A stretch of DNA of 36,035 nt from Eubacterium sp. GTDB taxonomy: Bacteria; Bacillota; Clostridia; Lachnospirales; Lachnospiraceae. The notes beneath the pieces are model-generated. The model saw only the letters and a program-made list of their open reading frames with translations. It was not told where the DNA came from and did not search any database. Both the position numbers and the translations under genes were made by a program. The stretch lies in contig JAEFAB010000042.1 in assembly GCA_016292095.1 (NCBI GenBank), positions 1 to 36,035 on the forward strand, in the 5' to 3' direction. Shown piece by piece: positions 19,383 through 24,679 of the stretch (within the stretch, counting starts at the first letter, position 1; each line of letters opens with the position of its first letter).

Positions 19383-20036
19383 TCAGTATTCCGAATTTGT
19401 GATAGTTACTTTTCGCTTATCGATTTGAATCAGACCTTCCTCTTTCATCTTACTGAGTTCTCGGCTCATGGCACTGCGATCCACGGATAAATAATCCGCC
19501 AGGGCACTCATAGTAAAAGGAAGAGTAAACGTTTTTCGGTCGTTTTGTGCGGCGAGAATTTCAAAGTAAGTCATCAGACGGTCACGAATGGTGCGCTGAC
19601 TTAATACTTCCAAATGCTCACAGATACTCTGGGTTTTATCGGATACCATCAAAAGAATATTGTTTACTAATTGGCTGTGGTGGGCACATGCCTTGGAACA
19701 CCGCTTAACAATATGTTCAAAATCAATGTAGCGGACATTACAGTTGGTCACGGCTTCCACAGTGATATTTTCCTTGCCGGCATAGTAGTAGAATAACTGG
19801 CCGAAAATATCTCCTTCTGTCAAATGCTCCAAAATCGTTCTGGTGCCGGAACTGTTGCAGTGAATGACGCAGGCTTCCCCGCTTTCCACAATGCCGATTC
19901 CTTTATCATCCTCATCGTAGAACAAAATGATTTCCCCGGAACGATACGTCTTGGTGAATGTATTAAAACAGGTCATCATGGTTTCCCGTTCGGATTCTTC
20001 AATATTATAGAATAAATTGTTTTCTGTAATTTTCAT
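19383..20036 (-). CDS. Crp/Fnr family transcriptional regulator
   Basis: The 217-residue protein has an N-terminal cyclic-nucleotide-binding-type beta barrel (about 10-120; SGEIILFYDEDDKGIGIVESGEA, LTEGDIFGQLFYY) and a C-terminal Crp-type winged helix (about 150-215; LPFTMSALADYLSVDRSAMSRELSKMKEEGLI). Eight or so cysteines occur, but not the N-terminal four-cysteine cluster of true FNR, so an Fe-S oxygen sensor of that type is unlikely. I start it at 20036 (MKITENN) behind GGGAGGGG; the longer frame upstream has no ribosome binding site. It is divergent to the nitroreductase and the pfl locus and probably controls them and itself, in response to redox or anaerobic signals. Confidence 0.92.
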   Translation of the reverse strand: MKITENNLFYNIEESERETMMTCFNTFTKTYRSGEIILFYDEDDKGIGIVESGEACVIHCNSSGTRTILEHLTEGDIFGQLFYYYAGKENITVEAVTNCNVRYIDFEHIVKRCSKACAHHSQLVNNILLMVSDKTQSICEHLEVLSQRTIRDRLMTYFEILAAQNDRKTFTLPFTMSALADYLSVDRSAMSRELSKMKEEGLIQIDKRKVTITNSEY

Positions 20037-20065
20037 AAAACCCCTCCCGAATAAAAGATATAAAA

Positions 20066-20102
20066 AGTATAACAAAAAATAAAACTTGTTGCAAATGCAA
20101 CA
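20066..20102 (-). promoter_or_regulatory. Regulator promoter overlapped by a palindromic operator
   Basis: On the minus strand TTGCAA (20089-20094) and TATACT (20066-20071) are separated by 17 bp. The -35 box is part of the palindrome TGTTGCA-AA-TGCAACA at 20087-20102, a 16-bp dyad of the size bound by Crp-type dimers. Binding here would block RNA polymerase and give autorepression; this is inference. Confidence 0.65.
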
Positions 20103-20256
20103 GATAAAACAAAGAACAGGGTATAAACTAAAGATACCTTGAAGGAGTAGCTGAAAAGTTTTTGTGAAATTTTTAAAGTTTCGAGGCTCATTTTTCAAGA
20201 ATTTATGCAATTTATAAAAACAACAACATTTAATCAAAATTTGTTTGTTCTATCCG

Positions 20257-20387: not shown

Positions 20388-20924
20388 ATGGATGCAATTA
20401 CATGTATTAAGACAAGAAGAAGTGTAAGAAAGTATACAGATAAGCCGGTTTCCAAAGAGTTAATTGAGGAAATTGTTGCAACAGCAATTTACGCCCCTTC
20501 TTGGAAAAATTCACAGACTACCCGTTACATTGCCGTAACAGACCCTGAAATCAAGAATCGCATTTCCAAAGAATGTTGTGCAGAACATAATCAGTCAATC
20601 ATTGACGGAGCTTCTGCTTTAATTGCAACATTAATCGTGGACAAGCGTTCCGGTTTCGAAAGAGATGGCAGTTATTCTACTATCAGAAAAGATAATTGGC
20701 AGGCTTTTGACAATGGAATTGCCACACAGACATTATGTTTGGCAGCACATGAAAAAGGACTGGGAACAGTTATCATGGGTCTTTATGATATAGACAAAGC
20801 GCAGGAAATTCTTCAGGTTCCTGAAGGACAGCTTTTGATGGCATTGGTTGCTGTAGGTTATCCGGCAGACGAACCAATGGCTCCAAAGAGAAAAACTGTT
20901 GAGGATGTCCTTACGTTTTGTTAA
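20388..20924 (+). CDS. Nitroreductase family protein
   Basis: The 178-residue flavoprotein shows the family start IKTRRSVRKYTDKPV, the FMN-phosphate binding arginines, YAPSWKNSQTTRYIAV and the late GLGTVIMGLYDIDK. Members reduce nitro-aromatics, quinones or flavins with NAD(P)H; the physiological substrate is unknown. AAGGAGG gives a strong start. It lies between the Crp-type regulator and pflB, 90 bp ahead of pflB. A weak stem (GGAC, CTTC / GAAG, GTCC around 20942-20967) follows without a proper T-run, so partial readthrough into pflB is possible. Anaerobic or redox-responsive use fits the neighbourhood. Confidence 0.9.
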   Translation: MDAITCIKTRRSVRKYTDKPVSKELIEEIVATAIYAPSWKNSQTTRYIAVTDPEIKNRISKECCAEHNQSIIDGASALIATLIVDKRSGFERDGSYSTIRKDNWQAFDNGIATQTLCLAAHEKGLGTVIMGLYDIDKAQEILQVPEGQLLMALVAVGYPADEPMAPKRKTVEDVLTFC

Positions 20925-21014
20925 TTACTAATCAGGTAATGGACGACTTCGATTTTGAAGAGGTCCGTTTACTATAAGCTTTACTTTATTTATATTTTTA
21001 GGAGGAAAAAAGAA

Positions 21015-23063
21015 ATGAGAGAAGAGTGGACAGGATTTGTCGGCGGTGCTTGGCAGAAAGAAGTAAACGTCAGAGATTTTATCCAGAAGAACTACACACC
21101 ATATGATGGTGATGGCAGTTTCTTAGCAGGCCCTACACAGGCAACAACAGATTTATGGAATCAGTTACTTGACCTTCAGAAGAAGGAAAGAGAAGCTGGT
21201 GGTGTTTTAGATATGGACACAAAGGTTGTTCAGACAATCACATCACACGGTGCCGGATATTTAGATAAGGATAAGGAAACAATCGTTGGTTTCCAGACAG
21301 ATGCACCTTTCAAGAGAGGACTTCAGGTTAACGGTGGTATCCGTATGGCTATGAAGGCTTGTTCAGACAATGGTTATGAAGTAGATCCAGAAGTAGTTGA
21401 TTTCTACACAAACTACAGAAAGACTCATAACGCTGGTGTATTCGATGCTTACACACCTGAAATCAGAACATGTCGTTCAAACCATATCGTAACTGGTCTT
21501 CCAGATGCTTACGGACGTGGACGTATCATCGGTGACTACAGAAGAGTTGCCCTTTATGGTATTGATGCATTAATCGAAGATAAGAAGGCACAGAAGTCTG
21601 GAACAGACCTTATGACAATGACACCTGATGTTATTCGTGATAGAGAAGAATACTCTGAACAGATTAGAGCTCTTCAGGAATTAAAGAAATTAGGTGAAAT
21701 CTACGGATTCGATATTTCAAGACCTGCACAGAACGTACAGGAAGCTATCCAGTGGATGTACTTAGGATACCTTGCAGCAGTTAAGGAACAGAATGGTGCT
21801 GCTATGTCTCTTGGACGTACTTCTACATTTATTGACTGTTTCGCTGAAAGAGATTTAGCAAACGGAACATTTACAGAAGAACAGATTCAGGAATTCGTTG
21901 ATCACTTCATCATGAAGTTAAGATGCGTTAAGTTCGCAAGAACACCTGAATATAACCAGATTTTCGCCGGTGATCCAGTATGGGTTACAGAATCAATCGG
22001 TGGTGTTGGTATTGACGGACGTCACATGGTAACAAAGATGTCATTCAGATACCTTCATACATTAGAGAACTTAGGTGCAGCTCCAGAGCCAAACCTTACA
22101 GTTCTTTGGTCTACAAGACTTCCTGAAGCATTCAAGAAGTTCTGTGCTAAGTTATCTATTGAATATTCTTCAATGCAGTACGAAAATGACGACTTAATGA
22201 GAGTTACACATGGTGATGACTACGGTATCGCATGTTGTGTATCTTCAATGAGAATCGGTAAGGAAATGCAGTTCTTCGGAGCTAGAGCAAACCTTGCTAA
22301 ATGTTTACTTTACGCTATCAACGGTGGTGTGGATGAAAAGACTAAGGTTCAGGTAGGACCTAAGTACAGACCAATCACAGCAGACGTTCTTGATTACAAT
22401 GAAGTAATGGAAAAATATGATGACATGATGAAGTGGTTAGCTAGAGTTTATGTAAGCGCATTAAACTGCATCCACTACATGCATGACAAATATTCTTATG
22501 AAAGAATTCAGATGGCATTACATGATGCTAAGGTTACAAGATGGTTCGCAACAGGTATTGCTGGACTTTCAGTAGTTGCAGACTCACTTTCAGCTATCAA
22601 GTATGCAGAAGTTAAGTGTATCAGAGACGAAGACGGCGTAGTAGTTGACTTCGAAACAACTGGTGACTTCCCTAAATATGGTAACGATGATGACAGAGTT
22701 GATGATATCGCTGTAGAAATCGTTAACAAGTTCATGGGATACTTAAGACAGCAGTATACATACAGAAATGGTATTCCAACACAGTCAATTCTTACAATTA
22801 CTTCTAACGTAACATACGGAAAGAACACAGGTAACACACCTGACGGAAGAAAGGCTGGACAGCCATTCGCACCAGGTGCTAACCCACTTCACGGAAGAGA
22901 TAAGAACGGTGCTGTTTCATCACTTTCATCAGTAGCTAAGCTTCCATTCCTTAACTCACAGGATGGTATTTCAAATACATTCACAATCATTCCTGGAGCA
23001 CTTGGAAAGGATGACGTAATCGTTGGTGATTTAAGTGACCTTGGAGTAGAAATCGATAAATAA
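21015..23063 (+). CDS. pflB: Pyruvate formate-lyase core subunit, lacking the glycyl-radical domain
   Basis: The protein converts pyruvate and CoA to acetyl-CoA and formate. It follows PflB throughout: start [18 protein letters not shown], the active-site cysteine pair in [20 protein letters not shown] (Cys407-Cys408), and SVAKLPF then DGISNTF near the end. I start it at ATG 21015 behind AGGAGG, giving 682 residues; an upstream ATG adds 20 unsupported residues. E. coli PflB has about 760 residues, and its last 75 or so hold the radical glycine. Here the frame ends with a normal TAA soon after PGALGKDD, exactly at that domain boundary. The missing domain is encoded at 23864-24112. Codon use is strongly biased, as in a highly expressed gene. 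Confidence 0.95.
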
Positions 23064-23084
23064 TTAAGATAAGGATGATTCACA

Positions 23085-23849
23085 TTGGCAAAAGGTATAA
23101 TTCATTCAATTGAGAGTTTTGGAACAGTTGATGGTCCCGGCGTGAGACTGGTGGTATTCTTCAAAGGATGCCCGATGAGATGCGCATATTGTCACAATCC
23201 GGATACTTGGAGTATGGAAGGTGGCGAAGAAATGACAGTGGACCAAATCATGGATACGTATGAGAGCAAAAAGTCTTTCTACAAGGATGGCGGAATTACT
23301 GCTACCGGAGGAGAGGCAATGGTTCAGATTGATTTCCTGACAGAACTGTTTGAAGCAGCTCACAAGCGAGGAATTCATACCTGCCTGGATACATCCGGAA
23401 CCACTTTCCAGCCGGATAACCCGGATTATTTAAAAAAGGTTGACCGTCTGTTAGAAGTGACCGATTTGATTATGTTAGATATCAAGCATATTGATCCTGA
23501 AAAACATCAGGAACTATGTAAGAGACCTAACGACAATATTTTAAAATTTGCCCAGTACCTTGATTCCAAGGGAAAGGAAATGTGGATTCGCCATGTTGTT
23601 GTTCCGCATGTAACGATGGATAGAGACTCTCTTTATCGACTCGGAAAATTTATTGGAACATTAAGACATGTGAATGCACTTGATATTCTCCCATATCATG
23701 ATATGGGAATCGTAAAATACGAACAGTTGGGAATCGATTATCCGTTAAAGGGTATTGAACCTGCTACGAAGGAAATGGCATTAGCGGCCAGAGAAATCGT
23801 AATGGAAGGGTTCAAAGAGTCCCGTGCAGAATTAAATTCAAAATCTTAA
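23085..23849 (+). CDS. pflA: Pyruvate formate-lyase activating enzyme (radical SAM)
   Basis: The 254-residue radical-SAM enzyme abstracts a hydrogen from the target glycine to make the glycyl radical. The Fe-S motif CPMRCAYC gives Cys29, Cys33 and Cys36, at the same positions as in E. coli PflA, next to the start [14 protein letters not shown]. The GGE-type SAM motif is visible as [10 protein letters not shown]. Translation starts at TTG 23085, 21 bp after the pflB stop with AAGGATG ahead. It lies between the two halves of the pyruvate formate-lyase, so its real target should be the small protein encoded next. Confidence 0.96.
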
Positions 23850-23863
23850 AGGAGGAAGAAAAT

Positions 23864-24112
23864 ATGTCAGCAAGTACACAGCAGGTAGATAATTTAGTAT
23901 CTTTATTAGATGGTTATGCATCAAAGGGTGGACATCACTTAAACGTAAATGTATTAAATAAAGAAACATTACTTGATGCTCAGGCACATCCTGAAAAATA
24001 TCCACAGCTTACAATCCGTGTTTCCGGATACGCTGTAAACTTTATCAAGTTAACAAAGGAACAGCAGGATGATGTAATTCATAGAACATTCCATGCTAGC
24101 ACAGGTTTATAA
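23864..24112 (+). CDS. Separate glycyl-radical domain of pyruvate formate-lyase (GrcA/YfiD-like)
   Basis: The 82-residue protein is the C-terminal domain that PflB lacks. After about 10 residues comes [10 protein letters not shown], then [35 protein letters not shown] and [17 protein letters not shown], which line up closely with the end of E. coli PflB. Gly55 in RVSGYAV is the radical site. E. coli YfiD/GrcA (about 127 residues) is similar but acts as a spare part for oxygen-damaged full-length PflB. Here it is only the domain itself and is probably essential for activity. AAAGGAGGAAG 6 bp ahead and strongly biased codons suggest high expression. It follows pflA by 14 bp, and a terminator ends the unit. 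Confidence 0.95.
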
Positions 24113-24132: not shown

Positions 24133-24160
24133 AGGGCCCGGTTTATACCGGGTCCTTTTT
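24133..24160 (+). terminator. Terminator of the pfl operon
   Basis: GGGCCCGG (24134-24141) and CCGGGTCC (24148-24155) form an 8-bp stem with one G-T pair around TTTATA, followed by TTTTT. Confidence 0.9.
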
Positions 24161-24170
24161 GTGCGTAAGC

Positions 24171-24386
24171 AATGAGTCACATAAATAAAAAGGCATATTC
24201 GGTGTGGGAATGCTTGCATTCACAACACCGAGTGTGTCTTTTTATTTAATGCGGCGAATGCCGCATCAGCGAGAAGAAGCGAAGCGAATTCGAGCTGAAT
24301 GTGACTCATTTATGGAGGGAGTAATGCGGCGAATGCCGCATCAGCGAGAAGAAGCGAAGCGAATTCGAGCTGAATGTGACTCATTT
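24171..24386. repeat. MITE-like palindromic element with tandem 75-bp units
   Basis: An 11-bp terminal inverted repeat, AATGAGTCACA at 24171-24181 and TGTGACTCATT at 24300-24310, bounds a 140-bp element. Inside, AAATAAAAAG/CTTTTTATTT, CGGTGT/ACACCG and GAATGC/GCATTC nest into one long hairpin (about 24183-24247). Then a 64-base block at 24248-24311 (GGC-GAAT-GCC hairpin, CAGC-GA-GAA ... TTC-GA-GCTG hairpin, GTGACTCATT) is repeated exactly at 24323-24386, a period of 75 bp. The repeated frame RRMPHQREEAKRI seen here is only the repeat translated. The remaining stretch to the promoter at 24680 (24387-24679) is AT-rich, and I see nothing else in it. Confidence 0.75.
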
Positions 24387-24679
24387 TTTGAAGAAGGTAA
24401 AAGAAAAAATAAAAAAAATTGCTTTACAACGATTTTTTTTTATGAAGTTTTGTAACAATATTATTTAAAATATAATACTGTTCAATTTTAAATATATTAA
24501 AAAAGATTACGTTAAATTTGTTAAAGGTAATAAAAAATATACAAATATATGGAAATGATACGGGTAACATAGCGGAAATATGTAAAAAGGACAAAATTGT
24601 TAAGAAATGTGCATTTTTTTCTGTAATATATTGCGGCAAATTGTTAAGAAAGTATGAAAATAATTACATAAAAATAGTA

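Follow-up and report, generated by a model that had tools for sequence, protein, structure and literature searches.

A naturally split pyruvate formate-lyase with a probably obligate, separately encoded glycyl-radical chain in Eubacterium sp. and other gut bacteria

Results

The pfl locus

The window, i.e., the whole 36,035-nucleotide stretch of Eubacterium sp. DNA analysed here, carries three consecutive genes of a pyruvate formate-lyase (PFL) unit on the forward strand. The core gene of the split enzyme, pflB (positions 21015 to 23063), starts with ATG and encodes 682 amino acids including the adjacent catalytic cysteines Cys407-Cys408. It is followed by pflA (23085 to 23849, TTG start, 254 amino acids), encoding the radical-SAM PFL activase and scoring 291.8 bits with the activase model TIGR02493 (cut-off 231.75), and then by a gene for a glycyl-radical subunit of the GrcA3 family (GRD; 23864 to 24112, ATG start), whose 82 amino acids contain RVSGYAV with Gly55. 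The sequence AGGAGG could be read as ribosome-binding site at 21000 to 21005, 9 nt 5' of the core's ATG, and again at 23850 to 23855, immediately 3' of the pflA stop and in front of the GRD gene. The unit is ended by a terminator-like hairpin on the same strand (24133 to 24156, 10 pairs, 7 of them G-C) with TTTT, reaching through 24160; six such sites were found in the region against a mean of 1.9 (sd 1.2) in shuffles. The ribosome-binding sites of the core and GRD genes and the closing terminator agree with those described in an earlier note on this DNA. Directly upstream of the pfl genes lie a Crp/Fnr-family regulator (19383 to 20237, reverse strand) and a nitroreductase-like gene (20388 to 20924, forward strand). 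After the operon, two tandem 75-nt copies, 95% alike, occupy 24247 to 24396, beside a 24-nt inverted-repeat arm pair within 24182 to 24248. No Rfam element was found at gathering scores between 17000 and 27000.

The core scored 1095.5 bits with the PflB model TIGR01255, over the equivalog cut-off of 994.2, and the radical glycine domain that this model expects on the same chain is absent from it. Along the 744 positions of TIGR01255 the core covers 2-663 and the small protein 664-742; along the 106 positions of the Pfam Gly_radical model (PF01228) the core covers 1-49 and the small protein 50-106, and in the alignment to E. coli PFL the core extends up to residue 680 and the small protein begins at 683. 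Judged from the profiles, the chain is broken, yet no known domain is missing from core and small protein taken together. The profiles and the E. coli alignment bear out the earlier description of a core that stops before the glycyl-radical domain, here at the linker, and of a separate 82-residue radical domain after pflA. That description placed the end of pflB just after PGALGKDD, which needs correction: the core continues for 15 residues past GKDD, standing where the glycyl-radical domain would be; tails of this kind are conserved in split cores. Cys407-Cys408, equivalent to C418-C419 of E. coli, is invariant across 46 split cores, which have a mean column identity of 77%. The small protein reached 163.2 bits with GrcA3 (NF038360, cut-off 158) and stayed under the cut-offs of GrcA/YfiD (TIGR04365, 95.8 bits against 170), whose long N-region its 82 residues lack, and of GrcA2 (NF008341, 107.9 bits against 145). 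The modelled window core superimposed on 2pfl with a TM score of 0.90 by query length at 64% identity. AlphaFold gave residues 651-682 a pLDDT below 50, so the tail is not placed, and the tail in the predicted structure of a long-tailed core was likewise below 50.

Codon adaptation was calculated against two ribosomal-protein genes of the window genome, themselves at 0.82 and 0.86, and its values are noisy for short genes. The high-expression codon use claimed earlier for all three genes holds for the core (0.81) and the GRD (0.85) but not for pflA (0.51), which resembles eight other window genes (0.42-0.61).

Distribution of split and full-length PflB

Profile searches of the window genome (2.3 Mb, 91% complete), of the kind that the earlier note had proposed, found no full-length PflB. 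The core was the sole match of PF02901, and PF01228 matched the GRD, the C-terminal end of the core and a 740-aa frame, which is NrdD. A completeness of 91% leaves some room for an unseen full-length copy, but the congeneric genome G282 (99% complete) has one PflB match, covering positions 2-667, and this lone core-only match argues against such a copy in the window genome.

We then compared 80 genomes in which GrcA3 matched a short frame, drawn among the matches listed (79 at ≥95% completeness plus the window genome, with at least two qualifying genomes, G112 and G184, left out). All 80 have a PflB match, and no full-length PflB was seen in 74, the window genome included, although nine of these 74 rows are imperfect: the gene lies on two contig ends in G060, G022 has a fragment only, the match crosses a stop codon in G099, G110, G268 and G212, and G061, G042 and G157 were reported in parts. 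Split and full-length PflB occur together in the other six (G284, G132, G119, G265, G085 and G296). Among the matches listed, GrcA3 exceeded its cut-off in 101 of 299 genomes of the family, and it lay inside long frames in at least three (G252, G096 and G074). All 138 stand-alone GRD frames (116 distinct) keep SGYA with the radical glycine, as RVSGYA in 135 and RISGYA in three. The search for PflB proteins ending at this boundary beside a stand-alone radical domain, also suggested earlier, thus revealed a widespread split. The identical break recurs in G282, there within a single contig, and in tens of further genomes; this rules out a frameshift or assembly error, as the earlier note had argued from the position of pflA. 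With no full-length PflB seen in 74 of the 80 genomes, an obligate two-chain PFL is strongly supported by the sequence comparison, and the two-subunit proposal of that note stands in this respect; it missed that pflA in the middle is a local order and that relatives have a third element.

Gene order and history of the split

In a survey of named loci (the best 80 of 580 confirmed places), core and GRD were both present in 64; in the remaining 16 the core was absent or too partial, some lying at contig ends. The commonest order among the 64 was core-GRD-pflA (46 loci), followed by core-GRD with pflA unseen within the stretch (14), core-pflA-GRD (L043, L044 and L048) and a single locus with pflA on the opposite strand. 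L076 had been taken for a further core-pflA-GRD locus, but its coordinates give core-GRD-pflA. The window and its congener G282 (L172) also have core-pflA-GRD, and the five cores with this order form one clade with SH-aLRT 100; the intervening pflA is a local feature of the window's small clade. Named carriers among the loci listed include Ruminococcus albus, R. bicirculans, Claveliimonas bilis, Lachnotalea glycerini, Massilimicrobiota sp. and Gastranaerophilales MAGs, and in Collinsella aerofaciens RefSeq marks a core-only pflB and grcA3 as adjacent. We take these carriers to be gut and rumen anaerobes.

A tree of 110 cores (85 split and 25 fused, GRD columns left out) was built by a quick method, with L153 and L076 flagged as long rows and a tool warning of a long-branch join among outgroup rows. 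The split or fused state changes three times on this tree, against a mean of 22.9 in shuffles, none of the 500 shuffles being as low. One clade of all split cores that excludes the fused ones was rejected (p-AU 0.0016), and the fused PflB of seven genomes is nested inside the split clade. One of these, L155:200-2521, carries a cysteine-containing insertion where core and radical domain join and is an apparent re-fusion by its sequence; the other six have a linker of canonical length and no trace of a split tail. One split followed by two re-fusions requires the fewest changes and would be the natural reading of the tree. Five Gastranaerophilales/Melainabacteria cores (L050, L053, L054, L107 and L120) are placed among those of Bacillota, which suggests that the split PFL may have been transferred between phyla.

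The core tail and a third small protein

The C-terminal tail has a G[DE][LIVC] motif in 77 of the 85 split cores, and the loci of these cores, which are related to one another, fall into distinct types. A frame of about 67 amino acids follows a core without a cysteine pair in its tail at 47 loci, a longer cysteine-bearing tail occurs without such a frame at 32, both together at none and neither at six. In all 47 cases the frame lies on the core's strand and starts between -40 and +196 bases from the end of the core frame, and it was found at none of 25 fused loci. For three of the six loci with neither form (the window's, G282 and L043) the third gene was located elsewhere in the genome, whereas genome searches did not find it for L044 and L048 (genomes of 1.3 and 1.5 Mb) or L096. 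The copy of the window genome lies unlinked to the pfl locus at G000:C26:49896-50087 (E 3.6e-18); the family is exemplified by L198:3397-3600 (G000:C26), L200:3416-3625 and, after a core, L187:3707-3913.

Over the 80 split-PFL genomes, the third gene was present in 55, counting matches that reach profile position ≥49 at E ≤1.2e-8 (the G012 and G087 matches cross a stop codon, and the G012 and G026 matches do not reach the second cysteine). The core tails seen for about two dozen of these 55 have no cysteine pair, and 24 of the 25 genomes without the third gene have a cysteine-bearing core tail. A cysteine module in one form or the other is thus present in 79 of the 80; the single exception is G288 (97% complete, L041), where neither was found. 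Eight rows from seven genomes that seemed to show a third gene beside a cysteine tail were rejected, because their matches fall on the tail of the core itself (profile positions 27-66) and on the GRD. In none of 60 genomes whose PFL is arranged otherwise (fused PflB in 18, a weak GrcA3 match in 42) was the third gene found; their 33 matches to the third profile cover positions 2-35 only, and 32 of them lie inside frames of 748-848 amino acids, the size of PflB. A search across 398 genomes of the phylum gave only two matches better than 1e-12, each from the family to which the window belongs.

The first 34 residues of the third protein resemble the helix and strand of the GRD (hhalign probability 95.8, E 7e-9), and the radical loop is absent. 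A profile of its C-terminal half matched 19 of 32 cysteine tails at E ≤0.01, compared with none of 1600 shuffled tails; the other 13 tails fell short of E 0.01. His26, Cys49, Cys56 and Pro59 are invariant in 30 sequences. Seven members tested had no Pfam match, and NCBIfam holds no model of the family, giving only a weak GrcA3 match of the N-terminal half in four of six members tested; the family appears to be unannotated in both collections. The third gene of the window genome has a codon adaptation of 0.55. At 38 loci with all four genes together, and with each locus's own core as reference, the GRD was closer than pflA to the codon use of the core in 35 and the third gene in 21, with medians of 0.71 for the GRD, 0.52 for the third gene and 0.51 for pflA. 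This pflA-like codon use of the third gene speaks for a catalytic or regulatory role rather than an equimolar plug.

A second small family was also observed (L199:10563-10946, L203:2555-2803, L204:2650-2847, L205:2313-2699 and L206:2486-2719), with a similar N-terminal half followed by HHGRCDVGSPWATG or a near variant; two members of this HHGRCDVGSPWATG type tested had no Pfam or NCBIfam match. A supposed link of the HHGRCDVGS small family to NrdD was dropped after four other loci gave no NrdD match at E 1e-5.

Additional stand-alone radical chains

At least 21 of the 299 family genomes have a second stand-alone GRD. Thirty GRD loci were examined, 20 of them in 16 genomes with two copies and 10 being named loci that lack a core: four were core-linked, and 26 had no core in the stretch (among them L185, where the GRD frame is masked by a longer frame). 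A Crp/Fnr-family regulator lies near 11 of these 26, a raw count over related loci: L049, L086, L087, L093, L095, L103, L178, L179, L181, L184 and L190. It adjoins the GRD in ten of them and stands about three reading frames off in L178; four of the regulators were checked by profile and the rest assigned by similarity to those four. A neighbour of the unlinked GRD of L087 was at one stage taken for a hybrid-cluster protein, which was wrong; it is GroEL-like.

Discussion

In anaerobes, PFL is one of the main enzymes of carbon and energy metabolism, central to fermentation, and it is destroyed by oxygen, which cuts the chain at the radical glycine. The arrangement described here would be an obligate hetero-oligomeric PFL with a docked, replaceable GrcA3 radical chain, a reading to which we give a probability of about 85% on the basis of sequence. 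The core would fold as the PFL barrel carrying the Cys-Cys site, and the GrcA3 chain would dock on it non-covalently, contributing the radical loop as well as the helix of the linker and the final strand of the barrel (HLNVNV). PflA would then place the radical on Gly55, probably only with the small chain docked, and when oxygen cleaves the radical loop the small chain could be swapped and the core kept. We infer docking, activation, activity and exchange from the sequences. An oxygen-cleaved radical chain could plausibly be replaced, and the second GRD copies and the Crp/Fnr-family regulators near coreless GRDs lend this idea indirect support.

Presumably the core tail, acting with the cysteine module or the third protein, steers or gates this docking. 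The third protein might be a placeholder in the strand slot that shields the empty barrel, it might control the exchange of spent radical chains, or it might quench or sense through its cysteines. That the split PFL is a three-part machine of core, exchangeable radical chain and a required cysteine module, supplied as a tail or as the protein of about 67 residues, is a tentative proposal, to which we give a little less than even odds. In a study of engineered E. coli PFL, PFL(1-695) with YfiD reached wild-type activity once activated, the binding of this tPFL to YfiD was too weak for ITC, the complex was activated 32-fold less, and a recognition element was proposed in the removed stretch (PMC8683613). 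The weak binding and poor activation reported there indicate that cutting the chain here need not by itself yield a working enzyme. The natural split core is also without the stretch removed from tPFL, and recognition or gating may have passed to the tail it has gained and to the cysteine module or third protein.

Several other explanations of the locus have to be weighed. The small protein could be a YfiD-like repair part of a decayed or damaged core, with the real enzyme elsewhere, and the NCBI family name (autonomous glycyl radical cofactor GrcA3) and the six genomes with both forms fit this idea; against the 74 of 80 genomes without a visible full-length PflB, and a core that is conserved (77% over 46 cores) and has codon use at the ribosomal level, we consider it very unlikely. 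Recoding, splicing or protein ligation that yields one full-length chain is scarcely credible: the GRD gene does follow the core gene in most named relatives (46 and 14 of the 64 loci, among the best 80 of 580 places), but in the window 765 bases of pflA intervene, the gaps between core and GRD in relatives reach 982 bases and often hold another gene, and each of the three genes has a start of its own, with AGGAGG at the core and the GRD.

Two further questions concern the origin and the use of the split rather than its existence. Several independent splits, instead of one with later re-fusion, would accommodate the fused PflB of seven genomes inside the split clade, six of them with ordinary linkers, and the tree comes from a quick method with a long-branch warning. 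This origin is nevertheless rather unlikely, because one split and two re-fusions make three changes, fewer than repeated splits, L155 retains its cysteine-bearing insert between core and GRD, and the radical domains of three such fused proteins (G252, G096 and G074) exceed the GrcA3 cut-off. That the split serves regulation or assembly, with stoichiometric control of the radical chain, instead of oxygen repair is a real possibility, though we consider it less probable than not: the named carriers are gut and rumen anaerobes, and the GRD sits in the core's operon at a similar codon bias, unlike a stress gene, but the unlinked second GRD copies near Crp/Fnr-type regulators suggest a conditional supply. 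We retain an obligate two-chain enzyme with a replaceable radical chain as the preferred reading.

As compared to E. coli PflB (TIGR01255; 1h16, 2pfl), the window's enzyme has the whole catalytic domain, the cysteine pair and the radical loop in common, but the E. coli enzyme is one chain, whereas the window's version is interrupted near E. coli residues 681-682 and its core has gained a new tail. YfiD/GrcA (TIGR04365; 6owr) is also a stand-alone glycyl-radical domain that docks on a PFL without its own domain; it has a disordered N-region of 60 residues, in contrast to the 82-residue chain without a long N-region, and its partner enzyme is complete when made, whereas the window's core ends before the radical domain. 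The small protein is a member of GrcA3 (NF038360), for which NCBI has a model and a name; the name describes a cofactor, while the sequences point to an obligate PFL subunit. The engineered tPFL(1-695):truncYfiD is split near the same place and active once activated, but it is artificial and poorly activated, and the natural break lies about 14 residues earlier (PMC8683613). The natural split differs from this construct also in its added core tail and, usually, a third element.

A natural split that runs through a whole lineage and puts the fragile part on an inexpensive chain of its own suggests that repair in the manner of YfiD can turn into the standard way of making the enzyme. The split PFL is a ready test system for the docking, activation and exchange of radical domains, processes that run poorly in the artificial E. 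coli construct, and it may inform the design of glycyl-radical enzymes that tolerate oxygen. If the third element is confirmed, a textbook enzyme of common gut bacteria would turn out to have a partner that is not annotated. In the open-access literature we met neither an account of a split PFL or of GrcA3 as an obligate PFL subunit nor a paper using the term GrcA3; most subscription papers and preprints lie outside it, so a description may exist. Two PDB entries named Formate acetyltransferase, 38la and 38lb, scored 1094-1146 bits with split cores compared with 1018 and 981 with E. coli PFL, and they look like split-type cores by sequence. Chain 38la_A ends at the split boundary, 38lb_A continues into ...SGNVMFGECDM, resembling a split-core tail, and neither chain matches the GRD; both were absent among the 50 fold-search matches listed, from a fold library reaching to 8 April 2026. 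This resemblance means that others may be working on the split PFL. Radical-domain matches also occur in a phage collection, where 1538 of 50,697 records encode one, most at 60-80% identity, and the match covers ≥80% of the domain in 32 of the 1538.
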